Under the pieces are notes generated by a model. It ran no database searches. It saw only the letters and a list, made by a program, of their open reading frames with translations, and was not told the DNA's origin. DNA of 64,000 nt from Siminovitchia fordii DSM 16014 = CIP 108821 (GTDB lineage: Bacteria; Bacillota; Bacilli; Bacillales; Bacillaceae_C): assembly GCF_000374565.1 (NCBI RefSeq), contig NZ_KB894690.1:62001-126000 (forward strand), given 5' to 3'. The translations under genes were made by a program, and so were the position numbers. Shown in pieces: positions 2,016-16,529 of this stretch; position 1 is the stretch's first letter, and every line of letters starts with the position of its first letter.

Positions 2016-3644
2016 ATGAGTCAACAATCAGCGGATATGATACTTTCAGGAAATGCTGTTTTTACAGGGCTTTCAGATCAGCCGGAACCTGCATCCATAG
2101 CAATTAAAGATAACAAGGTCATTGCTATCGGCTCTGAAAAGGAGGTTGAACCTTATGTTGACGAGAATACGAAAATCTATCAATTTCATGACGAATTGAT
2201 TATGCCGGGATTTCATGATTTCCACCTTCATCTGATGGACGGAGCAGTGATGATGAACAGCGCCGATTTATTCCCAGCCCGTTCAGAACAGGAAGCTTTA
2301 GAGATCATTCGTGAATTTGCAGAATCACGGCCAGAAGCACCTTGGATCATCGGCTCTACATGGGATGCGGGGTATTGGGATACTCAGCAATTACCTTCAC
2401 GTCATTCATTGGATCGTGTACTTCCGGACCGCCCTGCACTTATGTATCATGCAGAAGGCCATTATGCATGGGTCAATTCGAAAGCGCTGGAGATTGCCAA
2501 TATCACCCGCCATACGGAAGAACCTCCGTACGGAATGATTGGAAAAGATGAAAACGGCGAGCCCAATGGTATTTTATAAGAAGGCGCGATGGATAAGATT
2601 ATCCGGCATGCGTATGATTTCACGCATGAAAAAAAGCAAGAGCTCTTTAGGGATTTCTCCGCCCATGCTGCAAGTTTGGGGATTACCTCTGTCCATGATT
2701 TGTTTGCGACAGAAGCAATGGAAATGCTATACGATTATGAGCTTTTCAAGGAATTTGAAGATAATAATGAATTGATGACGCGGGTTCATGTATGGCCTGC
2801 ATTAAACGGCGATCTGGAACGCGCCAAAAAGTTACGGGATACGTATCAATCGGATAAACTCCGGATGTCAGGTCTTAAGCAGTTTATCGATGGAGTCATT
2901 ACCGCTCGAACGGCTTACTTGCTCGAACCTTATGCGGATCAACCGGAAACATGCGGTGAGACATCATTCCCCGCAGAGATCATTAAAAAATGGGTGGTTG
3001 ATGCTGATAAAGATGGCTTCAGCATTCGCTTTCATGCCATTGGGGACGGAGCGATCCGCCTTGCGCTGGATGCATACGAAGAAGCACAAAAGGCCAACGG
3101 CAAGCGAGATTCCCGGCATTCCGTCGAGCATGTAGAAGTGATCCATCCTGACGATATTCACCGTTTCAAGGAGCTTGGCGTTACGGTTTCGATGCAGCCC
3201 GATCATTTTGCCATGTCAGAACGGGGTGTTTACACTGAGCGGATTGGACTTGAACGGGAGAAATATGTTTTCCCGATACGCACATTACAAGAAACCGGGG
3301 CAAATCTGGCCTTTGGAACGGATTTTCCCATCGATGTATTAAGTCCGCTACTTCAAATTTATCGTGCAGTATCAAGGATTGACAGTAGTGGAGAGACAGT
3401 ATGGCATCCACATGAACGGATTACTCTGGCCGATGCTCTGAAAGCTTATACAGCCGGTCCCGCCTATGGTGTGTTCAGGGAGCAGGAACTAGGTACATTG
3501 GAAGTGGGAAAGCTTGCGGATATTGCTGTTTTGGACAGGAATCTTTTTAATATCCCCGTGGAAGAAATACCGGATGCAAAGGTTGAATTGACCATTTTTG
3601 ACGGGAAAGTTGTTTTTTCCAATACAGACGTTGTTAATAAATAA
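2016..3644 (+). pseudogene. Amidohydrolase (YtcJ-like), interrupted by an in-frame TAA
   Basis: Second copy of the amidohydrolase. One reading frame runs from 2016 to 3644 (about 542 codons, normal for the family) but holds a TAA at 2577-2579, between NGEPNGIL and EGAMDKIIRHAY. Both halves lie in the same frame, so this is a nonsense substitution and not a frameshift. The N-terminal half has the metal-binding GFHDFHLHLMDG motif (H-x-H). The C-terminal half has SVEHVEVIHP and FGTDFPID. Re-initiation at ATG 2589 is conceivable, but the fragment would lack the H-x-H. Reading it as a pseudogene assumes the base call is right. The 3' part is a near copy of the gene at 1-585. Confidence 0.85.
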
Positions 3645-4071: not shown

Positions 4072-4716
4072 ATGTCTATGGCCTATATATCTTCAAGATC
4101 GATTTTGAAAGGTTCCAGATGACTCGCCCGATGCTGTAAATACTGGCAATAGCCAGATAAATAGTGTTCCACATCGTCTATCCTCATACTGGTTTCATCA
4201 TATAACGTTAAGCCTGTAACTTCATTAAAATAGATTATAATATAGTTAAGATTTTTATTGGATGCACGGCATGTCCATCTTGCTATGACAGTTTAAAGGT
4301 ATAAGAGATACAAAATTAAAGTGAAATACATGTCAGCTTTTATTCAATAATAAGTGAAAGCATGGGAAATGAAGACGGACATATATCCAATGAATTGTAA
4401 GATCAAAAGGAGGGGTGGTAATATTAGATTTTGAATAGGCTCGATAAACCAAACAGCGCCCTGTTATAATTTTTTCAAGGTGAATAGGATCAGATGAATG
4501 TAATCACTGATTACCTGACACCCGGTAACTTAAGAGCCGATTCAATGTTGTCAAAGAATGGTGGAAAGTTTGTTAATTCATTCTTTGACTTATATTTATA
4601 TTATTTCAGTCCATGGCCGGAAAAGTTTAGTGTTTTACATAAGCTGGACCTGAAAAATATTGCACATGGACAATAACCAATTTTAGCTGAAAAACGCAAT
4701 CATAGGAGTGAACCGG

Positions 4717-5433
4717 ATGACTCAAGATGTAGAGCAGATGATTGTAGATGATTTAATGAAAGCGATCATGCAGGATAAATTCAAGCCGAATGAACGGCTG
4801 CCTTCTGAAAACGATTTGGCGAATGATTACAGAGTGCCACGTATTAAGGTCAGGAATGCTCTTCAGAAGCTGGAGGAGATGGGATATATTTACTCGCAGC
4901 AAGGGAAAGGCCGCTTTTTGAAAGACAGTCAGCAGCAGATTGAGCTTCATTTGACAGGCAGTAAAAGTTTTACAGAAAAAATGCTGAGTTCCGGTTATCC
5001 TCTTAAGACAAAAAATGTAAGCTGTGAAAAAATTGCCTATCATCCACGAATCTATTCTGCTTTGCAAGTGACCGAGAGTGATGAGGTATTTAAAATATCC
5101 CGATTGCGTTTAATTGAAGAAAAGCCCGTTGCGCTGCATAGCTCGTATGTAGCCAAGTCGACTTTTCCGAATATAGAGCAGGACGGTGCGCAGTTGCGTT
5201 CCATGTTCGCGTATTACCGACAAATGGGATATATGGAGTTTACAAGCAGCGCCAGCCATTTGAGTATTTCCTTTCCAACAAGCGAAGAACGATCAATGCT
5301 TGAATGCACCGCATTGGTACCGCTGTTGATTGTGGAAAGCAATTGTATTGCCGAACCGCAAAATAAAGTTTTAGAGTATACGAAAATCATATATCGAAGC
5401 GATTCCTTCAGGTATGCCATTACACCAAAATAG
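4717..5433 (+). CDS. GntR-family transcriptional regulator with UTRA domain (PhnF-like)
   Basis: About 238 residues. The N-terminus is a GntR winged helix (RLPSENDLANDYRVPRIKVRNALQKLEEMGYIYSQQGKGRF, residues ~25-65). The rest fits a UTRA ligand-binding domain (SGYPLKTKNVSC; SRLRLIEEKPVALHSSYV). ATG 4717 is preferred over GTG 4708 because AGGAG at 4704-4708 sits 8 nt before it. The gene lies directly upstream of the phosphonate operon, in the position of phnF, so it is probably its local repressor, responding to a phosphonate or C-P lyase intermediate. It has its own terminator (5443-5479), so the phn operon has a separate promoter. Confidence 0.85.
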   Translation: MTQDVEQMIVDDLMKAIMQDKFKPNERLPSENDLANDYRVPRIKVRNALQKLEEMGYIYSQQGKGRFLKDSQQQIELHLTGSKSFTEKMLSSGYPLKTKNVSCEKIAYHPRIYSALQVTESDEVFKISRLRLIEEKPVALHSSYVAKSTFPNIEQDGAQLRSMFAYYRQMGYMEFTSSASHLSISFPTSEERSMLECTALVPLLIVESNCIAEPQNKVLEYTKIIYRSDSFRYAITPK

Positions 5434-5442
5434 AATTCAACT

Positions 5443-5479
5443 AAGCTGTTCCATAGATCTTATGTGGAGCGGCTTTTTT
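5443..5479 (+). terminator. Intrinsic terminator after the GntR gene
   Basis: An 11-bp stem with two G-U pairs (AAGCTGTTCCA at 5443-5453 with TGGAGCGGCTT at 5465-5475) is followed by TTTTTT. It separates the regulator transcript from the phn promoter. Confidence 0.75.
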
Positions 5480-5556: not shown

Positions 5557-5611
5557 TTTACAATATCTTTATAAACCCTTTACACTGGCTTACTTGGCAA
5601 CATGTTACGAT
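5557..5611 (+). promoter_or_regulatory. PhoP-type box and promoter of the phn operon
   Basis: Four hexamers at exact 11-bp spacing read TTTACA (5557), TTTATA (5568), TTTACA (5579) and TTACTT (5590). This matches the known Bacillus PhoP recognition pattern TT(A/T/C)A(C/T)A repeated with about 5-nt spacers. An extended -10-like TGTTACGAT follows at 5603-5611, placing the repeats at roughly -61 to -23, the usual position for PhoP activation. There is no good independent -35. The AACATGTT palindrome around 5600-5607 overlaps the -10 and could be where the upstream GntR protein binds (inference). Confidence 0.75.
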
Positions 5612-5634: not shown

Positions 5635-6057
5635 ATGAAAAGGAATAGGAGAATGCGCATTTTAATAGAAGGATCCCGGGATATACCAAAGAAACTGGCG
5701 CAGGAAATAGAAAATAACCATTCCCTTGAAATCATCATGAAGCCACAGGGAGCATTAACAATGATCAAGATGAGGGAGACGGCGAAAAAAACGTTGTTCT
5801 ACCTAGGGGAAGTTTTAGTGACTGAATGCAAAGTGAAAGTGAAAGATCAAGTCGGCATTGGCATTGTAATTGGAATGGAAGAAGATCTTGCCTATCAGCT
5901 CGCTGTGATTGATGCGGCATTTAAAGCCGACTTAAGCGAATTAAATAAATGGATTCAATTATTAGAAGAGGAAGAGAGACGTATTGAAGCATCAAAGAGG
6001 TTAGATGCGGCAGTTATTCAAAAGACGAAAGTGAACTTTGAAACGATGGATGTTTAG
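5635..6057 (+). CDS. phnG: Phosphonate C-P lyase subunit PhnG
   Basis: 140 residues, close to the usual ~150 for PhnG, a core subunit of the C-P lyase complex PhnGHIJ that helps couple phosphonate to ribose. Diagnostic stretch: MIKMRETAKKTLFYLGEVLVTEC, followed by GIGIVIG and a DAAFKADL segment. ATG 5635 is chosen because GGGAGGTGA (5621-5629) sits 5 nt upstream; an in-frame ATG at 5602 lies inside the promoter -10. First gene of a 13-gene operon. Confidence 0.92.
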   Translation: MKRNRRMRILIEGSRDIPKKLAQEIENNHSLEIIMKPQGALTMIKMRETAKKTLFYLGEVLVTECKVKVKDQVGIGIVIGMEEDLAYQLAVIDAAFKADLSELNKWIQLLEEEERRIEASKRLDAAVIQKTKVNFETMDV

Positions 6058-6075
6058 TCATAAAGGGGTGAAAAA

Positions 6076-6666
6076 ATGGCGATTGATTTAGTACATGATA
6101 TTCAAAAAGGATTTCGGACAATCCTTCATTGTATGTCAAGACCCGGAACGATTAAAAGTATGGAAGGTCTTACTGGAGAACTCTCCGCTTCTTCAGAGGG
6201 ACTTCCGGCAACTTTTATTACTGCCTTAACATTGCTTGACCGGGAAGCCTCCTTTGCTCTTGTTGGTGAACAGACTAATAAGCTTGGAGAGCAAATAGCC
6301 GCTTATACAATGTCTGTTCAGGAAAAGTTATCAGCCGCAGACTACGTATTTATCACGAAACAAGCAACGAAGGAACAGGTTATAAACGTTTTTCAAGAGG
6401 TGAAAACCGGAACTCTCCCAAATCCGCAGCAATCTGCAACCATTATTTTGGAGACAGCATTTAGCGATGAGGGAGAACTGATTTTGGAAGGGCCAGGAAT
6501 CAAAACGACAGCAGAACTTTCAATTGCAAATTCTAAAGAATGGCTTGAAGAAAGACGGAAAGCAAACAAGGAGTATCCGTTGGGTGTCGACATGATTCTC
6601 GTAGATGAACGGTCTAATGTTGTTTGCATACCGAGAACAACGGTCATTAAGATGTGTGGGGTGTGA
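6076..6666 (+). CDS. phnH: Phosphonate C-P lyase subunit PhnH
   Basis: 196 residues, normal for PhnH, a structural core subunit of the C-P lyase complex. Family features are the N-terminal FRTILHCMSRPGTIKSMEG and the C-terminal YPLGVDMILVDERSNVVCIPRTT. AAAGGGGTGA precedes the start. It begins 18 bp after phnG and ends 3 bp before phnI, consistent with translational coupling. Confidence 0.92.
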   Translation: MAIDLVHDIQKGFRTILHCMSRPGTIKSMEGLTGELSASSEGLPATFITALTLLDREASFALVGEQTNKLGEQIAAYTMSVQEKLSAADYVFITKQATKEQVINVFQEVKTGTLPNPQQSATIILETAFSDEGELILEGPGIKTTAELSIANSKEWLEERRKANKEYPLGVDMILVDERSNVVCIPRTTVIKMCGV

Positions 6667-6669
6667 CGG

Positions 6670-7785
6670 ATGGCTTATGTAGCAGTAAAAGGTGGGACGG
6701 AAGCGATTGAAGAGTCCATTAAACGGTTGACATTTGAACGGATTCGATTAGAGGAAGTGCTGGAAATCAAGGCGATCATGGCTGGCATGCGTGGAATGAT
6801 TGATCAAGTGATGTCGGAGAGCAGCCTGTATTCTGAACTGTTGGCCGCTCTGGCAATCAAACAATCAGAAGGAAATATGGAAGAGGCGGTTTTCCTGTTG
6901 CGAGCCCATCGTTCCACATTGCCAAGAAACTATTATACCCGGGTGATTGAGACTGACAAAATGTTTGTTGAACGAAGAATTTCAGCCAGTTTCAAGGATA
7001 TTCCGGGGGGACAGATTTTAGGGGCCACCTATGATTATACGCACAGGCTAATGGACTTCGACCTGCTTTCTGAGACGAAGGAAGCGGTACAGGACTGGCT
7101 TCGTGAATACATGGAAGAAAATGTACAGATGAGCCACCATTCCAGTCTGGAAGATTTGCCCAAGGTTGTGGATTATCTGCGCAAGGAGAAGTTGTTCCCG
7201 TTTTATGAAGAGAATGATACGGAGCCGCTTGATGTAACGAAGCGCAGCGTCCAGTTTCCGACAACACGCAGTGAGAGGCTGCAAATTTTAACCAGAGGCC
7301 AGACAGGGGCTGTCACTTCCCTGGGGTATGCTGCAATAAGGGGGTATGGTGCAGTGCACCCGACAGTCGGAGAGTTGCGTGTAGGAATGCTTCCATTGAC
7401 TATCAGCGATCCAGCCGACCAAACAAATGATGAAGAGAATGATTATTATATAGGTCAAATAAAAGTGACAGAAGTGGAATCATTTATCCCGATTACCACC
7501 AAAAATGAAAAAAACGAAGAAGAGATTGAATTCGAGATCGGTTATGGCATTTGCTATGGCCAGAATGAAACAAAGGCGATTGCGATGAGCATTCTGGATC
7601 AAGCGCTGGAGCATGGCAAGAAAGACTATCCGACGCATGATGAGGAATTCATCCTTCTGCACATTGATTCGGTTGAATCAAGTGGATTCATTTCTCATTT
7701 AAAGCTGCCGCATTACGTGACATTCCAGTCGAAATTGGACAGCGTGAGGAAAATCAAACAAGGGGCTGAACAACATGGAAAATAA
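6670..7785 (+). CDS. phnI: Phosphonate C-P lyase subunit PhnI
   Basis: 371 residues, the usual PhnI length. With PhnG, PhnH and PhnL this subunit replaces the adenine of ATP with the phosphonate, giving a ribose-1-phosphonate 5'-triphosphate (known for the family). Recognised by the N-terminal MAYVAVKGGTEAIEES, the central FPTTRSERLQILTRGQTGAV and GYAAIRGYGAVHPTVGELRVG. It overlaps phnJ by 11 bp (7775-7785), so the two are translationally coupled. Confidence 0.94.
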   Translation: MAYVAVKGGTEAIEESIKRLTFERIRLEEVLEIKAIMAGMRGMIDQVMSESSLYSELLAALAIKQSEGNMEEAVFLLRAHRSTLPRNYYTRVIETDKMFVERRISASFKDIPGGQILGATYDYTHRLMDFDLLSETKEAVQDWLREYMEENVQMSHHSSLEDLPKVVDYLRKEKLFPFYEENDTEPLDVTKRSVQFPTTRSERLQILTRGQTGAVTSLGYAAIRGYGAVHPTVGELRVGMLPLTISDPADQTNDEENDYYIGQIKVTEVESFIPITTKNEKNEEEIEFEIGYGICYGQNETKAIAMSILDQALEHGKKDYPTHDEEFILLHIDSVESSGFISHLKLPHYVTFQSKLDSVRKIKQGAEQHGK

Positions 7786-8647
7786 ACCCCACTTTGCTCT
7801 GCTGGATGAAGGGTCGAAAAAAGAGATTCGAAGGGCGATCTTGAAAGCAGTAGCCATTCCGGGATATCAAGTTCCATTTGCATCAAGGGAAATGCCGATT
7901 GCTCGTGGTTGGGGCACCGGAGGATTACAAATCACCCTCTCCATTATCGGAAAGGAAGATGTGTTAAAAGTCATTGACCAAGGGGCTGACGAATCGGTCA
8001 ATGCGGTAAACATTAAAAAACTTGTCAATCGGACGACCGGGATTAAAACCACTACAGAAACCAGAGACGCGACAATTATTCAATCGAGGCACAGAATACC
8101 AGAAGTGCCTTTGACAGAGAATCAGATGCTTGTGCTACAAGTCCCCATTCCTGAACCGCTACGCTGGGTTGAACCAAGTGAATGGAAGACGAAACAATTA
8201 CATGCCGAGAATGAATACAGCGGTGCCTGGCTTATGCTGTTCGAACAGATTATGAAATATGGAAAAACAGCAACAAATGCGGATCATCCGGTGCTTGTCC
8301 ATAATCGATATGTGATGGCGCCGAGTCCCATTCCCCGCTTCGATAACATCAAGATGAACCAATCCGAGTCTTTAATCCTTCTGGGGGCGGGGCGAGAGAA
8401 AAAGATTTATGCTGTACCTCCATATACGAAGGTAGTCTCGCTGGCTTTTGAAGATCATGCGATGGAAGTGGAATCATTTGAAGGGAAACATTGTCATTTG
8501 TGTCATTCAACCAATGTGTTTTTGGATGAATTAGTTCATCCCGAAACCAACGAGACATATTATCAATGCAATGATACGAGCTATTGTCTCGCCACATTGA
8601 ACAAAAAAGCACAGAAAGCTGAGGTGACGGTTGAAAATGCAAGATAA
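7775..8647 (+). CDS. phnJ: Alpha-D-ribose 1-methylphosphonate 5-phosphate C-P lyase PhnJ
   Basis: 290 residues. PhnJ is the radical-SAM enzyme that breaks the carbon-phosphorus bond. The four key cysteines are present with the spacing known from the E. coli enzyme: C-x2-C-x21-C-x5-C at about residues 240, 243, 265 and 271. Three should hold the 4Fe-4S cluster and the last is the catalytic thiol. RGWGTGGLQITLSIIG and YAVPPYTKVVSLAFEDH are further family signatures. Intact catalytic residues indicate a working lyase. Its end overlaps the phnK start by 11 bp. Confidence 0.95.
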   Translation: MENKPHFALLDEGSKKEIRRAILKAVAIPGYQVPFASREMPIARGWGTGGLQITLSIIGKEDVLKVIDQGADESVNAVNIKKLVNRTTGIKTTTETRDATIIQSRHRIPEVPLTENQMLVLQVPIPEPLRWVEPSEWKTKQLHAENEYSGAWLMLFEQIMKYGKTATNADHPVLVHNRYVMAPSPIPRFDNIKMNQSESLILLGAGREKKIYAVPPYTKVVSLAFEDHAMEVESFEGKHCHLCHSTNVFLDELVHPETNETYYQCNDTSYCLATLNKKAQKAEVTVENAR

Positions 8648-9476
8648 GCCCGTGCTAAAAGTAGTGAACTTGAGAAAACAATATGGTTCAGGCTGTGATC
8701 ATTGTGATGACGGACACGAAGTTACTTGGGAGAAAAACAGTTGCCCTGAATGCGGGACTGTCTATGCCTGCAATGATGTATCGTTTGAATTGTATCCCGG
8801 TGAAATTTTAGGAGTCGTCGGTGAGAGTGGGAGTGGAAAATCCACGATGATGAAGTGCCTGTATTTCGACAATGAGGTGACTTCGGGGGAGGCATATATC
8901 AGTTCATACAATAATGGCGAGACAAATGTCTTTGAAGAGTCATCCCAGCAATTGCGCCATATACGGAATACCATTCTTGGTATGATCTATCAAAATCCGG
9001 TATTGGGATTGAAAATGGATTTCTCATCCATCGGCAACATTGCAGAAAAAATGATTGCTGCGGGTAACCGCAACGTGGAGTATATGGAAAATCGAAGCAA
9101 AGCGCTTCTAAAGCATGTTCACATACCGATTTCCCGTATCAAAGACGAACCGAGGAAATTTTCCGGAGGGATGCAGCAACGTGTTCAAATTGCCAAGGCC
9201 TTATCGAATGAACCACCAATTCTATTGTTGGATGAAGTGACGACAGGCCTTGATTTATCTGTACAAGCGAGTGTATTGGATCTAATCAAAACGATCCGGC
9301 AGGAGTTGGGAATCAGCATGATTGTTGTTTCGCATGATTTGGCAGTCATTCGTATGTTGGCTGATCGGACAATCGTCATGTTGGACGGAAAGATTATAGA
9401 GCAGGGATTGACAGATCAAATTTTGGAAAATCCACAGCATGAATATACCCAGCAACTTGTTTACTCACTGATTTAA
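8637..9476 (+). CDS. phnK: C-P lyase ABC-type ATPase PhnK, with CxxC..CxxC insert
   Basis: 279 residues. PhnK is an ABC ATPase that docks on the PhnGHIJ core, not a transporter component. Walker A is GESGSGKST, the signature is FSGGMQQRVQIA and Walker B is PILLLDEVTT, with the switch His in VVSHDLAV. Between strand 1 and Walker A lies an insert with cysteines at residues 20, 23, 36 and 39 (C-x2-C-x12-C-x2-C), like a zinc knuckle; the E. coli protein as I recall it lacks this. ATG 8637 is preferred over TTG 8631 because GAGGTGA at 8621-8627 is then 9 nt away. Overlaps phnJ. Confidence 0.93.
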   Translation: MQDKPVLKVVNLRKQYGSGCDHCDDGHEVTWEKNSCPECGTVYACNDVSFELYPGEILGVVGESGSGKSTMMKCLYFDNEVTSGEAYISSYNNGETNVFEESSQQLRHIRNTILGMIYQNPVLGLKMDFSSIGNIAEKMIAAGNRNVEYMENRSKALLKHVHIPISRIKDEPRKFSGGMQQRVQIAKALSNEPPILLLDEVTTGLDLSVQASVLDLIKTIRQELGISMIVVSHDLAVIRMLADRTIVMLDGKIIEQGLTDQILENPQHEYTQQLVYSLI

Positions 9477-9488
9477 CGGAGGGATTTT

Positions 9489-10664
9489 GTGTATTTACTG
9501 ATGAATGGCCAAGTTGTTTTAGAGGACCGGATTGTCGACAAGCATGCAGTGGTGATTGAAAATGATTGCATTGTCGCCGTTATTCCGGAACAGGATGCTG
9601 CAAAGTACAAACACTATCAAATATTGGATGCAAACGGCGGATATATATCACCAGGATTCGTCGATATCCATTCAGATTATATAGAAGGGATTGTTTCCCC
9701 TCGCCCATCGACACTGATGGACTTCAATATGGGGATTCGGGAAGCGGAACGCATCCTGATCAGTCATGGGATCACTACCATGTTCCACTCGCTGTCAATC
9801 TATAAAGATGACGGGTTCAGCCATAAACCGATCCGTAATCCGAAAAATGTGAATCGGCTCATTCATGCAATCAATGAAACTCATACAAGCGAGCATTTGA
9901 TCCGAAATCGAATGCATGCAAGATTTGAGATTGACAACATCGAGCAAGTGGATGCATTCATACAAAACATCCAGGATGAGAAAGTGCATTTGATTTCCTT
10001 TATGGATCATACGCCAGGGCAGGGACAGTATCGGAATCTGGAAATCTACCGTGAAACATTAAAAGGCTATAGTGATATTACTGATGCTGAGATAGATGAA
10101 ATCATTACTAATGGAATGAAGAAAGACAAAATAACACTTGAACAGATTAAGGAAATAAGCCAATTGGCTTTGGAAAAAAATATTGCGATTGCTTCCCATG
10201 ATGACGATGAAATGGAGAAACTGTCCCTTGTCAAAAGTTATGGTACCTCTATCAGTGAATTTCCAACAACACTTGAAGTGGCAAAGAAAGCAAAAGAAAT
10301 GGGTTTATGGACAATTGCCGGTGCTCCGAATGTCATGCTGGGTGGCTCGCATTCCGGTAACTTATGCGCAACAGAAGCTATTCGTGAAGATGCCATTGAT
10401 ATTTTGTGCAGCGATTATTATCCACCTGCCCTATTACACTCCATTTTTCTGCTTGGCGAAAAAAAAGGACAGGACTTGCACAAAATGTTTCAGCTTGTCA
10501 CATTAAATCCGGCCAAAGCGGTGCGAATCGATGATCAAATCGGCTCTATCAAGGAAGGGAAGAAAGCGGATATTATCATTATAGAAAGAATGGATGATGG
10601 TTTCCCAGTGGTAACAGCAGCCTTTGTAGATGGAAAACTGATGACAAGGACGAATTATCGATGA
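9489..10664 (+). CDS. phnM: Alpha-D-ribose 1-methylphosphonate 5-triphosphate diphosphatase PhnM
   Basis: 391 residues, standard for PhnM, an amidohydrolase-fold enzyme that removes pyrophosphate from the ribose-1-phosphonate 5-triphosphate to give the PhnJ substrate. Metal-site and signature segments: GFVDIHSDYIEG, SFMDHTPGQGQYR, IASHDDDE and GAPNVMLGGSHSGN. It starts with GTG at 9489, with GGAGGG at 9478-9483 at proper distance. The stop overlaps the next start (ATGA). Confidence 0.93.
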   Translation: MYLLMNGQVVLEDRIVDKHAVVIENDCIVAVIPEQDAAKYKHYQILDANGGYISPGFVDIHSDYIEGIVSPRPSTLMDFNMGIREAERILISHGITTMFHSLSIYKDDGFSHKPIRNPKNVNRLIHAINETHTSEHLIRNRMHARFEIDNIEQVDAFIQNIQDEKVHLISFMDHTPGQGQYRNLEIYRETLKGYSDITDAEIDEIITNGMKKDKITLEQIKEISQLALEKNIAIASHDDDEMEKLSLVKSYGTSISEFPTTLEVAKKAKEMGLWTIAGAPNVMLGGSHSGNLCATEAIREDAIDILCSDYYPPALLHSIFLLGEKKGQDLHKMFQLVTLNPAKAVRIDDQIGSIKEGKKADIIIIERMDDGFPVVTAAFVDGKLMTRTNYR

Positions 10665-11293
10665 ACACAAAAGAAGTGAGATTGGGAAATGAACCATTTA
10701 TCCACGACCATGTGATGCTGAAAAATGTAGAGTTCGGGAAATACAATGAAGTGGGCACGTATAACTTTTTTGAAAATGTCACTTTTGGTGATTATTCCTA
10801 TACTGGTCAGTTCTGCTTCATTCAAAATGCAGTGATAGGAAAATTTTCCAATATTGCAGCAATGGTACGAATCGGCCCTACTGATCATCCTTATGAAAGG
10901 CCGTCACTCCACCACTTCACTTATCGCAAGAAAATGTTCGGGTTCAGCGAGCAGGATGATTGGGAGTTTTTTGAGCGGCGTGTGAGTCGCACAGCTTTCA
11001 TCGGTCATGATACATGGATTGGACACGGAGCAATTATACAGCCGGATGTCACGATTGGAAATGGAGCGGTTATCGGCAGTGGTGCCATTGTAACAAAAGA
11101 CATTCCTCCTTATGCCATTGCTGTCGGAGTCCCGGCAAAAGTCATTAAATATCGGTTTGCCCCTGAGGTTATTGAGAGTCTCCAAGCTATCCAGTGGTGG
11201 GACTGGCCTTACGAAAAAATCAAAGAATCTTTGAATGATTTCCACCTGGATATTAAACAGTTCATAAAAAAACATGACGGGAGGAAAGAATAG
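10661..11293 (+). CDS. Hexapeptide-repeat acetyltransferase of the phosphonate operon
   Basis: 210 residues. A left-handed beta-helix transferase with irregular hexapeptide repeats, including HDTWIGHGAIIQPDVTIGNGAVIGSGAIVTKD and a C-terminal YAIAVGVPAKVIKYRF. It fits the hexapeptide acetyltransferase family known from phn operons (sometimes called the DapH/phnAcT type). The acceptor is unproved; aminoalkylphosphonates, as for PhnO, are a reasonable guess. ATG overlaps the phnM stop by 4 bp, and phnL starts 0 bp after its stop, so it is firmly inside the operon. Confidence 0.85.
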   Translation: MNTKEVRLGNEPFIHDHVMLKNVEFGKYNEVGTYNFFENVTFGDYSYTGQFCFIQNAVIGKFSNIAAMVRIGPTDHPYERPSLHHFTYRKKMFGFSEQDDWEFFERRVSRTAFIGHDTWIGHGAIIQPDVTIGNGAVIGSGAIVTKDIPPYAIAVGVPAKVIKYRFAPEVIESLQAIQWWDWPYEKIKESLNDFHLDIKQFIKKHDGRKE

Positions 11294-12004
11294 ATGACCC
11301 GATTACTGGAAGTCAAATCTATCTATAAATCATTCATGGTTCATCATATTGGAAAGAAAATACATGCAGTGAATGACATCAGTTTTTCATTGGATGAAGG
11401 CAAATTCATTGGAATAATCGGTAAAAGCGGCAGCGGAAAATCCACCATTCTGAAACTGATTTATCGAACATATTTACCTGAGCGCGGTGAAATTATGTAT
11501 AACTCAGAGCGTTTCGGAAAAATCGATTTAATGAAAGCTTCTGAAAGAGACATGATTTATTTACGCCAAAATGAAATCGGCTATGTTTCACAGTTTTTAA
11601 GTGCCATGCCAAGAACGACGGCCCGTGAAATTGTTGAACAATCCGTATTGGAAATGGGAAGGACACAGGAGGAAGCAAAAGTGATTGCGGCAGAAGCACT
11701 GACTCATTTTGACTTGGATCCAGGGCTATGGGATAACTATCCTGTCACTTTTTCGGGCGGTGAAAAGCTCAGACTCAATATTGCCAGTGCCATTGTGAAA
11801 AAGCCTCGGTTATTGCTGCTTGATGAGCCTACAGCAAGCTTGGATGATGCTTCAAAGTTAAAGGTCCGAAAAGCTATTGAAAAGTTGAAAGATGAAGGAA
11901 CGACACTCATTGGCATCTTCCATGACCTGGAATTTATGGAAGGGTTATGCGACAAAGTGTTCGACTTTCAAAAAGGGGAGTGTTTGGAAGGAGTAGGGGC
12001 ATGA
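11294..12004 (+). CDS. phnL: C-P lyase ABC-type ATPase PhnL
   Basis: 236 residues. PhnL is the second ABC ATPase of the C-P lyase system and is needed for phosphonate coupling to the nucleotide. Walker A GKSGSGKST, signature FSGGEKLRLNIA and Walker B PRLLLLDEPT are all present. HAVNDISFSLDEGKFIGIIG and ARTTAREIVEQSVLEMG are typical of PhnL. GAGGAAAG sits before the ATG. The end overlaps the PHP gene by 4 bp (ATGA). Confidence 0.92.
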   Translation: MTRLLEVKSIYKSFMVHHIGKKIHAVNDISFSLDEGKFIGIIGKSGSGKSTILKLIYRTYLPERGEIMYNSERFGKIDLMKASERDMIYLRQNEIGYVSQFLSAMPRTTAREIVEQSVLEMGRTQEEAKVIAAEALTHFDLDPGLWDNYPVTFSGGEKLRLNIASAIVKKPRLLLLDEPTASLDDASKLKVRKAIEKLKDEGTTLIGIFHDLEFMEGLCDKVFDFQKGECLEGVGA

Positions 12005-12831
12005 AAGCTGATTTGCATGTGCACTCCAATTATTCCGACGGCTCGAATACAGTGGAAGAAATCATGGAGATGGCTGAACAAAAAGGGATTACACATATCA
12101 GTCTTGTCGACCATGACACTGTTCAGGGCATTGAGCATGCCCAAGAGGCAGGAGCAAGCAGAGGGATTACGGTGATTCCGGCTGTTGAAATCTCAGCCTA
12201 TGATTTTAAGAGAAACCGAAAAGTGCATATATTGGGCTATGCCTTTAACAAAGAGGCGGAACATATTCAAAGACTATGCACTCCATTGCTTCAAAGAAGG
12301 CATGAAAACTCCTTGTGGCAGGTGGAGCAGCTCCAGAGGAACGGCTTTCAGGTGGAACTCGACGAGGTCAAAAAGCAGGCGGCTCAAGGGGGGATCATTT
12401 ATAAACAGCATATCATGGCTTGTTTGACTGATGCCCATTTTTCCACACAAGAATATAAGCACATGTATAAAAGTCTTTTCAAAGGGGACGGAATTTGTGC
12501 CCGTGATATTAAGTATGTCGATGCCAATGATGCTGTTAAAGCGATTAAACGCGACGGGGGCTATGCCGTTCTAGCTCATCCGGGCCAGCTGGATTCATTT
12601 GACATGATACCTGAACTTGTACAAAGCGGGCTGGATGGTATTGAACGCAATCATTATGATCACATAGTCCAGGATATTGTAAAAGTAGAGTCCTACGCAG
12701 CTGAATACAGGTTGTTCATGACTGGCGGAAGTGATTATCATGGTGATTTTGGCACGCCTATAGAGATTGGAGATTTTGACAGTCCTGTCAAATCCATTCA
12801 ATTATTATTTTCAAATATCAAGGTATTGTAA
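12001..12831 (+). CDS. PHP-domain phosphodiesterase (PhnPP-like, replacing PhnP)
   Basis: 276 residues with the PHP metal-site motifs MKADLHVHSNYSDGS, LVDHDTVQG, PAVEIS, VLAHPGQ and GGSDYHGDFG. In C-P lyase operons such proteins (PhnPP, described in Eggerthella) open the 5-phosphoribosyl 1,2-cyclic phosphate made by PhnJ, the step done by the unrelated metallo-beta-lactamase PhnP in E. coli. No phnP is present in the operon, supporting that role (inference). ATG 12001 is chosen over an in-frame upstream ATG at 11947, which lies inside phnL, because GGAG precedes it and the family starts at the DLHVHS strand. Confidence 0.85.
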   Translation: MKADLHVHSNYSDGSNTVEEIMEMAEQKGITHISLVDHDTVQGIEHAQEAGASRGITVIPAVEISAYDFKRNRKVHILGYAFNKEAEHIQRLCTPLLQRRHENSLWQVEQLQRNGFQVELDEVKKQAAQGGIIYKQHIMACLTDAHFSTQEYKHMYKSLFKGDGICARDIKYVDANDAVKAIKRDGGYAVLAHPGQLDSFDMIPELVQSGLDGIERNHYDHIVQDIVKVESYAAEYRLFMTGGSDYHGDFGTPIEIGDFDSPVKSIQLLFSNIKVL

Positions 12832-12991
12832 AAGATTGATAAAGAGTGTGTAAATCGCCCTTACTTCCCCGGGAAATATGTTTGAATAAAGGTAAAGGGA
12901 CTTCTCATCCATTGGATAGAAGTAGTTCAGTAGACAGGGAAACAGATGAATGATGGCTGTAAAAAGAACGATTAACCTAAAGGAGAGAATC

Positions 12992-14014
12992 ATGAAGAAG
13001 TCAATTTTATCAATTATAATGTTAATTTTTCTTTCTACGATTCTTGGTGCTTGTTCAGGTGAGAAGTCAGCTAGTTCAAAAGAAATTACAATGGTATGGT
13101 ATCCGAACGAATCCGGTAATGATTTGAAGGACGCCCGTGATGAGATTGGCAAAATCATAGAAGGTGCGACTGGAAGAAAGGTGGAACATAAATTAACAAC
13201 AGATTATGCAGTGGCTATTGAAACGATCGCCAATGGCAAAGCCGAATTAGCTTTCATGGGTGCCCAAGGCTATATAGAAGCGAGAAGTAAAAATGATAAT
13301 ATTGAACCTCTTGTGGTTCCAAGTGGTGCATCAGGAACCTTGGATGATGCTGTTTATTATAGCTGGCTTGCAGTAAGAGCTGGAGATACCGATAAGTATA
13401 AAACGAACGGCGAATACTCAATTGATAACATTGTAGGTTCTAAATTCTCTTTCGTATCAAACAGCTCTACTTCGGGATTCAAAGTACCGTCAAGTGATAT
13501 CATTGCTCATTTTTCAAAACAAGATCAATGGAAGGACTTGATGCCTGAGGATTTAATGGAGGGAGGAAAGTTTTTTAAAGAAGTATTATATGGGGATTCC
13601 CATCAAGGTTCGGCTGTAAATCTGCTGAGCAATCGTGCAGATGTAGCTGCGTTCTGTGATACATGTGTCGCTAACTATGTAGAACTGGCAGACGGTGAAG
13701 AAAATCGCCCAGGTTCAACCTATAAGGTTAGTGAGAATGCAGCGGAGCCATTCAACACTGTTCCAGGTGAGGAATTCACACTAATCAGTGTCACTCCTGT
13801 ATTGAATGCCCCGTTTGTAGCGAATATGGAAAGCTTGAATCAAGAAGATTTCGAAAAAATCCAAGAGGCATTCACTTCTGATGAAGTCGCAAACAATGAG
13901 AAGATTTTTGTCAAAGGCGAGGCAGAGACAGGACTTTTCAAGAAGACGGATCAGGAAAAATTTGTAGAAACGGATGACGCATGGTTTGATCCAATCCGTG
14001 AACTGTCAAAATAG
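12992..14014 (+). CDS. phnD: Phosphonate ABC transporter substrate-binding lipoprotein PhnD
   Basis: 340 residues. A signal peptide ends in the lipobox LGAC (Cys about 20), so the mature protein is membrane-anchored outside the cell. The body is a type II periplasmic-binding fold: ITMVWYPNESGNDLKDARDEI, a KAELAFMGAQGYIEA segment and FVSNSSTSGFKVPS, typical of PhnD proteins that bind phosphonates. ATG 12992 follows AAAGGAGAG; an in-frame ATG at 12950 has no ribosome site. It sits 160 bp after the PHP gene and is the first transporter gene. Confidence 0.92.
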   Translation: MKKSILSIIMLIFLSTILGACSGEKSASSKEITMVWYPNESGNDLKDARDEIGKIIEGATGRKVEHKLTTDYAVAIETIANGKAELAFMGAQGYIEARSKNDNIEPLVVPSGASGTLDDAVYYSWLAVRAGDTDKYKTNGEYSIDNIVGSKFSFVSNSSTSGFKVPSSDIIAHFSKQDQWKDLMPEDLMEGGKFFKEVLYGDSHQGSAVNLLSNRADVAAFCDTCVANYVELADGEENRPGSTYKVSENAAEPFNTVPGEEFTLISVTPVLNAPFVANMESLNQEDFEKIQEAFTSDEVANNEKIFVKGEAETGLFKKTDQEKFVETDDAWFDPIRELSK

Positions 14015-14037
14015 AATACGTTAGTGGAACAGCTTGC

Positions 14038-14072
14038 AAGGAGCGTATTCACCAAATGCCTATACGCTCCTT
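14038..14072 (+). terminator. Intra-operon hairpin after phnD
   Basis: A perfect 11-bp stem (AAGGAGCGTAT at 14038-14048, complement at 14062-14072) with a 13-base loop, without a proper T-run. In the gap between the binding-protein gene and the ATPase gene it more likely stabilises the phnD 3' end or partly attenuates phnCE than ends the transcript. Confidence 0.6.
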
Positions 14073-14106
14073 TGATTTGAAAAAACAAAACCGAGGAGTT
14101 GTATGA

Positions 14107-14871
14107 ATGTCTTTTTTGGCAGTGAACAATATCTCTAAACAATATGAAAAAGATAAACAAGTATTGTCAGATGTCAGTTTCGATATTACAAGCGGGGAGT
14201 TTGTTTCAATTATCGGGCCGTCCGGAGCCGGAAAATCCACTTTGCTCCGCTGTATCAATCGAATGGTGGATATTGAAGATGGCCAGATTGTTTTTCAGGA
14301 TGTTGATGTGATGTCTTTGTCCAAAAGGGAGCTTCGTAAACATCGGACCCAAATCGGCATGATCTTTCAACATTATAATCTGGTATCACGTTTGACAGTG
14401 ATTGAAAATGTGTTACATGGCAGATTGGGGTATAAGACAACCCTTCAAGGTGTATTGACCCGGTTCACTGAGAAAGAGAAGGCAGATGCATTTTCACTTC
14501 TGAAAAAGCTTGGCATGCAGGAACATGCGTATAAAAGATGTGATCAGTTAAGCGGCGGACAGAAACAGCGTGTAGGCATTGCCCGTGCCCTTATACAGCA
14601 CCCGCAAATATTGTTGTGCGACGAACCGATTGCATCGTTGGATCCGAATGCTTCCAAAGTGATCATGGACCATTTACAAAGCATATCCAAGGAAATGAAT
14701 ATCACTTGCATTGTTAATTTGCACCAGGTTGACGTCGCGAAGCGGTATTCGGACCGGATTATCGGATTAAACGGCGGAAAGGTCGTTTATGATGGTAAGC
14801 CTGATGGCTTGACCTCTAACGTCATCCATCGAATTTACGGATCCGAGGCGGGAAATCTGATCATGGAGTAG
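14107..14871 (+). CDS. phnC: Phosphonate ABC transporter ATPase PhnC
   Basis: 254 residues. Walker A GPSGAGKST, Q-loop MIFQHYNLV, signature LSGGQKQRVGIARAL, Walker B ILLCDEPIASLDP and the switch VNLHQVD. The NLHQVD segment and the RLTVIENVLHGRLG motif are typical of the PhnC branch. It energises the PhnE channels and starts after a 92-bp gap that contains the hairpin; phnE follows after 10 bp. Confidence 0.92.
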   Translation: MSFLAVNNISKQYEKDKQVLSDVSFDITSGEFVSIIGPSGAGKSTLLRCINRMVDIEDGQIVFQDVDVMSLSKRELRKHRTQIGMIFQHYNLVSRLTVIENVLHGRLGYKTTLQGVLTRFTEKEKADAFSLLKKLGMQEHAYKRCDQLSGGQKQRVGIARALIQHPQILLCDEPIASLDPNASKVIMDHLQSISKEMNITCIVNLHQVDVAKRYSDRIIGLNGGKVVYDGKPDGLTSNVIHRIYGSEAGNLIME

Positions 14872-14881
14872 GAGGAGATCA

Positions 14882-15667
14882 ATGGATATCGAAGTGTTCA
14901 GAAGGAAAAAAAGGCAATTTACCATATTTGCTCTCGTGATGGTCGGGATTACACTCCTTTCATCCAAAATGACAGATTTCGACTTTATCCATAGTCTCTT
15001 ATCCATCCCCGAGGCTTTTAAATGGATGGCATCAAATCTTTTTATCACAAGCGAGTCATTGGAGAAGATGCCTTCCATTATGGATAAGTTATTCGAAACT
15101 ATTTTTTTGTCCATCGCCGCTACGACTACTGCCAGTGTCTTTTCTTTATTACTGGCATTATTAGGATCACAGACAACAAAGGTGAATAATATTTTCAGTA
15201 CATTAAGCCGACTCATAGCCTCAGTATTCAGGAATATCCCTATAGTCGCCTGGGCGCTGATTTTGCTGTTGTCCTTTGGACAAAATGCTCTAACGGGCTA
15301 TTTTGCACTGTTTTTGGCTACATTAGGGTTTTTGACCCGTGCATTTACAGAAACCATAGATGAAACGGGCAAAGCATCAGTTGAGGCGCTTCAAGCTACA
15401 GGTGCCAATTATTTTCAAGTAGTAGCAAAAGCAGTGATCCCGGAATGTTCTCCTCAAATCATCAGCTGGATTCTGTTTATGATCGAAACAAATATCCGAA
15501 GTTCCACACTGATCGGCATTTTAACCGGAACTGGGATCGGGTTTGCATTTGATTTGTATTACAAAAGTATGAACTATAACGTGCTAAGTCTCATCACGAT
15601 CAGTATTGTCGCTGTTGTTATAGCGATCGAGCTGGTTTCAAACTATGTCAGGAGGGTTATTTTATAA
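14882..15667 (+). CDS. phnE: Phosphonate ABC transporter permease PhnE (first)
   Basis: 261 residues with about six membrane helices and the binding-protein-dependent permease coupling loop around EALQATGANYFQVVAKAVIPECSPQIISW. GGAGGAGATC just precedes ATG 14882. It forms the membrane channel with the next gene. The presence of two different phnE genes suggests a heterodimeric channel, as in several Gram-positive phosphonate transporters. Confidence 0.9.
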   Translation: MDIEVFRRKKRQFTIFALVMVGITLLSSKMTDFDFIHSLLSIPEAFKWMASNLFITSESLEKMPSIMDKLFETIFLSIAATTTASVFSLLLALLGSQTTKVNNIFSTLSRLIASVFRNIPIVAWALILLLSFGQNALTGYFALFLATLGFLTRAFTETIDETGKASVEALQATGANYFQVVAKAVIPECSPQIISWILFMIETNIRSSTLIGILTGTGIGFAFDLYYKSMNYNVLSLITISIVAVVIAIELVSNYVRRVIL

Positions 15668-15668
15668 A

Positions 15669-16529
15669 ATGATCACCTTAAAAGGCAACCCGACTTTTGA
15701 TATGATGACTACCAATTCGGGGAAAATAAAAATTACGAATTGGAACAAGCCCAAGATTGTGATGACTGGAACTTTTATTGTCCTGGTGTTTCTTACCATT
15801 TATGGATTTTTGACGTTTAACTATAATAATATTCATTTGCTAGAGGCTATTGCCGCTACAATTGATAATTTAAAGATTGTATTTTTGCAGCCTTCCCTCA
15901 ATAACTTCTCCTTGCCAGAAGCTCTATATCAAATTACTTTGACGATCGGCTTGGCATTTCTAGCCACGATAGCGGGTGCAGTTATATCTTTGTTCATTGG
16001 TTTATTTGCCGCTAAAAATCTGGCGCCAAAACCAATTGCGAATGCAATCATCGTGATCATGGCTTTTATTCGGTCTGTGCCAACAGTATTATGGGTACTG
16101 ATATTTGCGATTGCTGCAGGGCTCGGCAGTGAAGCCGCAGTCTTGGGAATGCTGCTTCATACCGTTGCATTCCTAGTCAAGGCTTTTGCTGAATCGTTTG
16201 AAGATCTGGATTTAGGGATTATTGAGGCATTGCGCGCTAGCGGAGCAAATTGGTGGCAAGTCATTACGAACGCAGTGCTCCCTTCCTCTGCAACATCTCT
16301 CTTATCCTGGACATTTCTCCGCTTCGAAACAAATTTTACCGTTGCTGTTGCAATGGGTGCCGCGGCAGGAGCCGGTGGAATTGGTTTCGAATTATTCATG
16401 GCGTCAAGCTTCTATTTTGACCTCCGAGAAGTAGGGTTTATCACTTATGCGATCCTTCTTGTCGCTGTTTTATTGGAGCTGTCTTCTACACAAATAAAGA
16501 AACGATATCTTATGAAAGAATCCGTATAA
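15669..16529 (+). CDS. phnE: Phosphonate ABC transporter permease PhnE (second)
   Basis: 286 residues, six or so membrane helices, coupling loop EALRASGANWWQVITNAVLPSSATSLLSW. An in-frame ATG at 15645 lies upstream of AGGAGGG (15650-15656), so that site should drive ATG 15669 (12-nt spacing, slightly long). The start falls just after the stop of the first permease. Last gene of the phn operon; a terminator follows at 16560. Confidence 0.9.
   Translation: MITLKGNPTFDMMTTNSGKIKITNWNKPKIVMTGTFIVLVFLTIYGFLTFNYNNIHLLEAIAATIDNLKIVFLQPSLNNFSLPEALYQITLTIGLAFLATIAGAVISLFIGLFAAKNLAPKPIANAIIVIMAFIRSVPTVLWVLIFAIAAGLGSEAAVLGMLLHTVAFLVKAFAESFEDLDLGIIEALRASGANWWQVITNAVLPSSATSLLSWTFLRFETNFTVAVAMGAAAGAGGIGFELFMASSFYFDLREVGFITYAILLVAVLLELSSTQIKKRYLMKESV

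Follow-up and report, generated by a model that had tools for sequence, protein, structure and literature searches.

A candidate two-input promoter, with a PhoP-type comb and a probable GntR operator, upstream of the C-P lyase operon of Siminovitchia fordii

How is the breakdown of phosphonates by C-P lyase controlled in a Gram-positive bacterium? In Escherichia coli the phn operon is under a Pho box and PhoB, and Pho control of C-P lyase is established (PMC10574752, in the part of the text available). According to the available part of a 2021 review (PMC7866108), phn clusters like that of E. coli are unreported in Gram-positives with the exception of phnDCE of Mycobacterium smegmatis, and the same text then lists predicted phn clusters in Arthrobacter and Streptomyces. 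The question is raised here by a locus of Siminovitchia fordii for which a first-pass annotation had proposed that a PhoP box of four hexamers, followed by an extended -10, drives a C-P lyase operon and is layered on a local GntR regulator. The window, that is, the whole stretch of 64,000 nucleotides that was analysed, contains the following features (all on the forward strand):

4708..5433, +: gene for a GntR/HutC-type regulator with a UTRA domain (PhnF-like; Pfam GntR and UTRA over cut-off), a likely repressor of the phn promoter
5443..5475, +: intrinsic-terminator-like hairpin with a T tail (13-pair stem with 5 G-C, T run), between gntR and the phn promoter
5557..5562, +: putative PhoP repeat 1, TTTACA, exact TTHAYA
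5568..5573, +: putative PhoP repeat 2, TTTATA, exact TTHAYA
5579..5584, +: putative PhoP repeat 3, TTTACA, exact TTHAYA
5590..5595, +: fourth in-phase slot, TTACTT, 4/6 to TTHAYA, overlapping the inverted repeat
5592..5605, +: conserved inverted repeat ACTTGGCAACATGT (family core CTTGGCAACAAG), probable GntR operator
5606..5611, +: -10 element TACGAT
5635..16529, +: C-P lyase and phosphonate transport genes, all on one strand

The operon that had been placed downstream of the promoter is indeed a C-P lyase operon, with phnG, phnH, phnI and phnJ standing together and all exceeding their family cut-offs. The gene order is phnG, phnH, phnI, phnJ, phnK, phnM, a gene for a hexapeptide protein, phnL, a gene for a PHP phosphoesterase, phnD, phnC and two successive phnE genes. 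NCBIfam cut-offs were exceeded by PhnG, PhnH (TIGR03293, TIGR03292), PhnM and the hexapeptide protein, and Pfam cut-offs by PhnI, PhnJ and PhnD; PhnK, PhnL and the PHP protein are named by their best match under the NCBIfam cut-off, while the names of PhnC and the two permeases rest on domain and position. On the other side of the locus, the ORFs 2016-2579 and 2589-3644, which share a frame, look by eye like one amidohydrolase split by a stop, and the second of them also resembles the ORF 7-585, so that these may be tandem paralogs.

The gap between gntR (4708-5433) and the ATG of phnG (5635) is 201 bp long and holds the hexamers, which stand 11 bp apart throughout repeats 1-3. The layout of a PhoP box of the B. 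subtilis type is present, with three or four TTHAYA-like hexamers at a spacing of about 11 bp shortly before a -10 for which no -35 is seen; another promoter-like pair lies farther upstream (5557-5586). The positions given to the four in-phase hexamers by the first-pass annotation (5557, 5568, 5579 and 5590) are correct, but the fourth, with a 4/6 match, is a poor PhoP repeat. The exact triple repeat occurs once in the window and four times in the 4.5-Mb genome (both strands), against none for the reversed control pattern, and when the 201-bp gap was shuffled by bases it appeared on either strand in 1 of 20000 shuffles. No Pho genes were recognised by eye near the other exact triples of the genome (L001, L003 and L004), and the site in L003 is near a transposase-like ORF. 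The consensus promoter scan of the gap returned the pair of TTTACA at 5557 with TACACT ending at 5586 (9/12 matches); eight promoter-like pairs were found in the scanned region against 7.3 expected, and none of them uses the -10 at 5606-5611, which is 21 bp from the TTTACA at 5579. Terminator-like sites between 4000 and 7000 numbered three, with 2.3 expected. Two other readings of the region were tried and rejected: TTGGCA as a -35 is only 6 bp from the -10, and in a sigma-54 reading of TTGGCA...TTACG the GC of the -12 element is absent (judged by eye against the consensus).

In order to see which parts of this layout are kept, phnG loci were collected from three sources. Among 60 genomes near that of the window nine had a match, its own genome included; among 397 genomes of the order 33 carried phnG and 30 yielded loci (G303 and G095 were among those left out); and a collection of named genomes supplied the best 80 of 589 loci, 25 of which (L014-L038) were analysed; L039-L093, ≤60% identical and, by name, mostly from Proteobacteria and Cyanobacteria, were set aside. 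Removal of a weak match (L013, E 9.7e-4) and of the duplicates L095, L102 and L120 left 60 loci, many of them related and some possibly from one species present in two collections. Loci were considered to be outside the genus if they carried other genus labels or, in the named collection, if PhnG was ≤58% identical. There are 34 representatives in total, 30 of which, <75% identical, are from outside the genus.

The most conserved element of the region is the inverted repeat, CTTG-GCAA-CAAG, which directly precedes the -10 and overlaps the fourth hexamer slot. In 49 of the 60 loci a match of ≥10/13 to its 13-base form (ACTTGGCAACAAG) lies no more than 350 bp upstream of phnG, compared to 150 of 3000 shuffled upstream regions. 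Its core TTG-N4-CAA is present in most of the 49 loci, and CTTGGCAACAAG itself in 27. A search of the 397 genomes with the exact pattern CTTGGCRACAAGNTANNNT gave 24 matches, 18 of which were just upstream of phnG. Since the six matches elsewhere equal the six of the reversed control and lie inside ORFs (five in ORFs of ≥234 aa and one, in L199, in a doubtful ORF of 100 aa), the inverted repeat belongs to phn. Within the genome of S. fordii there are two exact occurrences, one of them inside an ORF; a further 54 differ at one position, making 56 against 29 for the reversed control; within the window nine matches at ≤3 mismatches were found with 6.3 expected, and none was seen upstream of gntR. 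The commonest form pairs at 4/6 positions and that of the window at 3/6, but the inverted repeats of L018 and L020 pair at 5/6, and fully symmetric forms are found in L108 and L112 (CTTGGCGCCAAG), at the operon head of L100 (CTTGGTACCAAG) and in L011 (CTTATCGATAAG), which points to a dimeric regulator.

Although the loci were not selected on the -10, its T, A and final T are invariant in 34/34 representatives. The extended -10 claimed for this promoter is real in the window, where TGTTACGAT (5603-5611) contains the -10 hexamer; its TG, however, is not conserved, the first base being A in 31/34 representatives, and the extended form is confined to four of the five genus members examined. In the window (5603-5604) and in three of the four genus relatives (L006-L008) CATG replaces CAAG, a change that breaks one pair of the repeat and creates the TGn of the extended -10, whereas L009 retains CAAG.

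When the loci were aligned on the inverted repeat alone and then scored for TTHAHA hexamers, a comb with two or more of its three repeats at ≥5/6, a one-base shift being allowed, was present in all 49 loci with the inverted repeat, against 166 of 2450 shuffles. Scanning upstream of phnG in relatives thus bore out the expected conservation, for a comb of three repeats. Among the 30 representatives from outside the genus, hexamers at ≥5/6 occupy the repeat 2 slot (-24 from the inverted repeat) in 26, the repeat 3 slot (-13) in 23 and the repeat 1 slot in 13 at -35 and 17 at -33; a weaker peak is seen farther out (eight at -46, 11 at -44). The third repeat in relatives is often TTAAAA, and the comb is kept in the genus relatives L006-L009. 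For a stricter set of 27 loci, a period of 11 scored best among 9 to 13 (4.914, against 4.543 for 10 and 4.42 for 9), the shuffles averaging 3.104 (sd 0.113) and reaching 4.914 in none of 2000. The fourth slot (-2) scores ≥5/6 in none of the 30 representatives. It matches at 3 to 5 of 6 positions in the five genus members and at ≤3/6 in the 44 other loci; together with the overlap by the conserved inverted repeat, this makes the earlier description of a four-repeat box an overstatement.

The regulator encoded upstream of the promoter scores best against the PhnF family by a small margin and remains under its cut-off (TIGR02325, 106.8 bits, cut-off 156.8); we therefore call it only PhnF-like. 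An ortholog (38–100% identical) lies upstream of phnG in 45 of the 60 loci, and in 43 of the 49 loci that carry the inverted repeat there. Wherever the ortholog is present (45/45 loci) the element is too, at phnG or at the operon head: in L018 and L100 the ortholog is inside a rearranged operon and the element is at the operon head, 1853 (12/13) and 2319 (11/13) bases upstream of phnG, respectively, with a comb that is clear in L100 and weaker in L018. This search of operon heads covered loci other than L037, L113, L117, L121 and L122. Six element-bearing loci have no ortholog upstream of phnG. One of these (L014) is cut by a contig end, and L015 has a full 13-base site and no GntR ortholog within its 20.8 kb; the other four (L012, L114, L110 and L119) have changed elements and a diverged GntR (22–27% identical) 4–7 kb from phnG. 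Of the 11 loci in which phnG is not preceded by the element, two have the ortholog, six have a diverged GntR (24–28%), two have none detected and one is truncated. At the recognition helix the 45 ortholog loci have [VI][PT]R, and the diverged GntRs, where it was read, VN[RP], VDR or TNH; loci of the latter kind have either no element upstream of phnG or a changed one, such as CTTATCGATAAG (L011) and CTTGTCGATAAG (L110). The inverted repeat, only partly symmetric in the window, thus accompanies a GntR/UTRA gene as a PhnF/HutC operator would, and 5592-5605 is most likely the operator of the neighbouring GntR repressor. Layering of the promoter on the local GntR, as originally suggested, thereby gains a place, between the putative PhoP repeats and the -10.

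A model based on sequence only (R1) was derived from 13 well-formed combs at phn in other lineages, with the inverted repeat excluded; these were 13 of 20 rows that had been picked by comb score from 44. Searched against the whole genome of S. fordii, R1 found the promoter of pstS first (E 0.004) and the phnG site second (E 0.108), although the E-values are weak and the third match (E 0.135) falls inside an ORF of 959 aa. The model has 32 matches in the genome; ranks 1–18 were inspected by eye, and many of these are inside ORFs, only ranks 1 (pstS), 2 (phnG) and 5 (on the reverse strand, before phnD) lying beside phosphorus genes. Run on 29 sources, R1 recovered the phnG site in 16 of 28 phnG loci and gave no phnG-site match in L017-L020, L023, L025, L031, L033, L036-L038 and L190, and therefore represents a single style of comb. 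At pstS, four slots are in phase (scores 6, 6, 5 and 5) and 9 bp separate the last of them from TAATAT; the corresponding distance between fourth slot and -10 in phn is 10 bp. In the same genome (L186 874-5734, - strand) a PhoP/PhoR-type pair lies directly upstream of pstS, which passes TIGR02136, so that the same box stands at a known Pho gene with a phoPR-type pair at hand. The kinase, of the PhoR/PnpS type, passes NF046044. The OmpR-type response regulator passed no NCBIfam cut-off among the 25 models shown, its best model being YycF (276.6 versus a cut-off of 340). Among solved structures it is closest to RegX3 (2oqr, E 2.8e-62), and the receiver of Bacillus subtilis PhoP (1mvo) is matched by its own at E 1.9e-53. 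The permease ORF following pstS (L186) resembles PstC by eye.

Comb-like sites were also seen elsewhere. TTTACA-like repeats in 11-bp phase occur on the reverse strand of the window just before phnD (12828-12863), the fifth-best match of R1 in the genome; they are for the most part kept in L187-L189 and to some extent in L190, and they might form an additional PhoP site that serves phnDCEE. A similar site precedes gntR in Neobacillus niacini (L017 6866-6902), and three Paenibacillus have such sites ∼2–2.5 kb upstream of phnG (L031 5790-5822, L033 5349-5379 and L034 5387-5419).

The comb may be read in ways other than as a PhoP box of three repeats. Four PhoP repeats with an extended -10, GntR acting elsewhere, would suit the window, where four hexamers are in phase at the places proposed; and since the fourth slot reaches 3 to 5 of 6 within the genus and the pstS promoter has four slots of 6, 6, 5 and 5, PhoP may still occupy that slot. 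This reading is nevertheless doubtful, as outside the genus the slot is at ≥5/6 in 0/30 representatives, it shares bases with the inverted repeat, the best-conserved element here, and the TG is A-G in 31/34. Another regulator of the OmpR family, above all WalR/YycF, could read the repeats instead: read on the opposite strand, the PhoP repeat comes close to the WalR/YycF box TGTWAH-N5-TGTWAH, that motif is matched by the first two pstS repeats when reverse-complemented, and the PhoP candidate itself scores highest against the YycF model (276.6 of 340, under the cut-off). We regard this as improbable, given that the two best sites in the genome are at pstS and phnG, both phosphorus genes, that the TTAAAA frequent as third repeat in relatives does not fit the WalR motif, and that there are three or four repeats and not two. 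It is very improbable that the comb reflects no more than AT-richness, curvature or an UP element, or that the promoter is an ordinary one independent of PhoP: the region is T-rich, the pair at 5557-5586 resembles an ordinary promoter at 9/12 and the genome E-values of R1 are weak, but a sequence-specific TTnA recurs at 11 bp across diverse lineages, with 0/2000 shuffles as high, and the top match of R1 is the pstS promoter.

As for the inverted repeat, its assignment to GntR competes with the possibility that it is the site of another dimeric regulator or an element of the core promoter. The GT-N4-AC core of HutC regulators (PMC4494728, available part) is missing from it, its commonest form is only partly symmetric, at 4/6 pairs, and L015 has the site without a nearby GntR. 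Against this, the element accompanies the orthologous GntR in 45/45 loci, loci with a diverged GntR lack it at phnG or carry changed versions, and fully symmetric forms exist in L108, L112, L100 and L011, which leaves the non-GntR explanation unlikely. We retain the reading of a PhoP comb of three repeats next to a GntR operator. PhoP control of the phn operon as first put forward persists in part: relatives retain the comb, which is similar to the pstS promoter beside a PhoP/PhoR-type pair, but the fourth repeat is not conserved as a PhoP repeat beyond the genus, and the extended -10 is limited to four of its five members examined.

With a probability of roughly three in four, in our estimate, the phn promoter has two inputs, activation by PhoP and repression by GntR, such that low phosphate and a ligand would both be required. 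Under phosphate starvation, phosphorylated PhoP would bind the three TTTACA-like direct repeats at 5557-5584, and possibly the poor fourth slot, and would bring in RNA polymerase, the promoter having a good -10 (5606-5611) and PhoP substituting for the missing -35. The PhnF-like GntR, encoded just upstream, would bind 5592-5605 and block the promoter until a ligand released it; this ligand is probably some phosphonate or a product of its breakdown. Activation by PhoP combined with release of GntR would make the operon an AND gate, dependent on low phosphate and ligand alike. Judged from the sequence comparisons, PhoP control of the C-P lyase operon through such a two-input promoter appears well supported. 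We also lean towards a broader proposal, according to which the phn operons of Bacilli and of two or more clostridial lineages (Clostridium vincentii, L020, and a Tissierellales genome, L023) would share a fixed three-part phn promoter composed of comb, GntR operator in place of the -35 and -10, CTTG-N4-CAAG would represent an undescribed HutC specificity class that has co-evolved with the recognition helix, and the promoter would work as an AND gate.

Hulett's work reportedly defined the PhoP core box of B. subtilis (pstS, phoA, phoD and tuaA) as TTHAHA-like direct hexamers ∼11 bp apart. The phn promoter resembles the PhoP-activated promoters of B. subtilis, as well as the pstS promoter of its own genome, in having direct hexamers at ∼11 bp just upstream of a -10 without a -35; it differs in that three repeats are good while a second element takes up part of the fourth slot, and in that the target is a C-P lyase operon. 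As in E. coli, such an operon would be in the Pho regulon, here in another phylum. The Pho box of E. coli differs from the box described here, and E. coli phnF is inside the operon, whereas the GntR gene is here upstream of it, before a terminator-like hairpin. The operator of M. smegmatis PhnF is TGGT-N4-ACCA, compared to CTTG-N4-CAAG here. In that species PhnF represses phnDCE, expression of which is raised under phosphate limitation (PMC7866108, available part). As far as the same part goes, the two systems share a GntR-family repressor beside phn transport genes, but phnDCE has two operators in a bidirectional promoter and is a transporter cluster, not C-P lyase. Operators of the HutC subfamily, of which PhnF is a member, are palindromic with the consensus GT-N4-AC, according to the accessible text of PMC4494728; the inverted repeat is like them in being palindromic with a centre of 4 nt and unlike them in its half-site, TTG/CAA versus GT/AC, and so does not fit that consensus. 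In the available part of PMC12676729, one treatment of Bacillus licheniformis induced phnF and phoR together, and phnF was raised under full phosphate.

Among the matches listed in a search of the open-access literature (titles and starts of abstracts), none concerned PhoP control of phn in Bacilli and none described an operator CTTG-N4-CAAG, the letters of which matched only a yeast paper. The circuit is of a known kind; its operator, not found in print among those matches, departs from the HutC consensus. The regulation of C-P lyase has been worked out mainly in Proteobacteria. A conserved dual-control promoter in Firmicutes, if true, would make it possible to predict under which conditions soil and marine bacilli degrade phosphonates, and hence when methylphosphonate can yield methane. 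It would further provide a concrete operator for a branch of the HutC-like regulators, together with a set of loci in which the co-evolution of regulator and operator can be followed.
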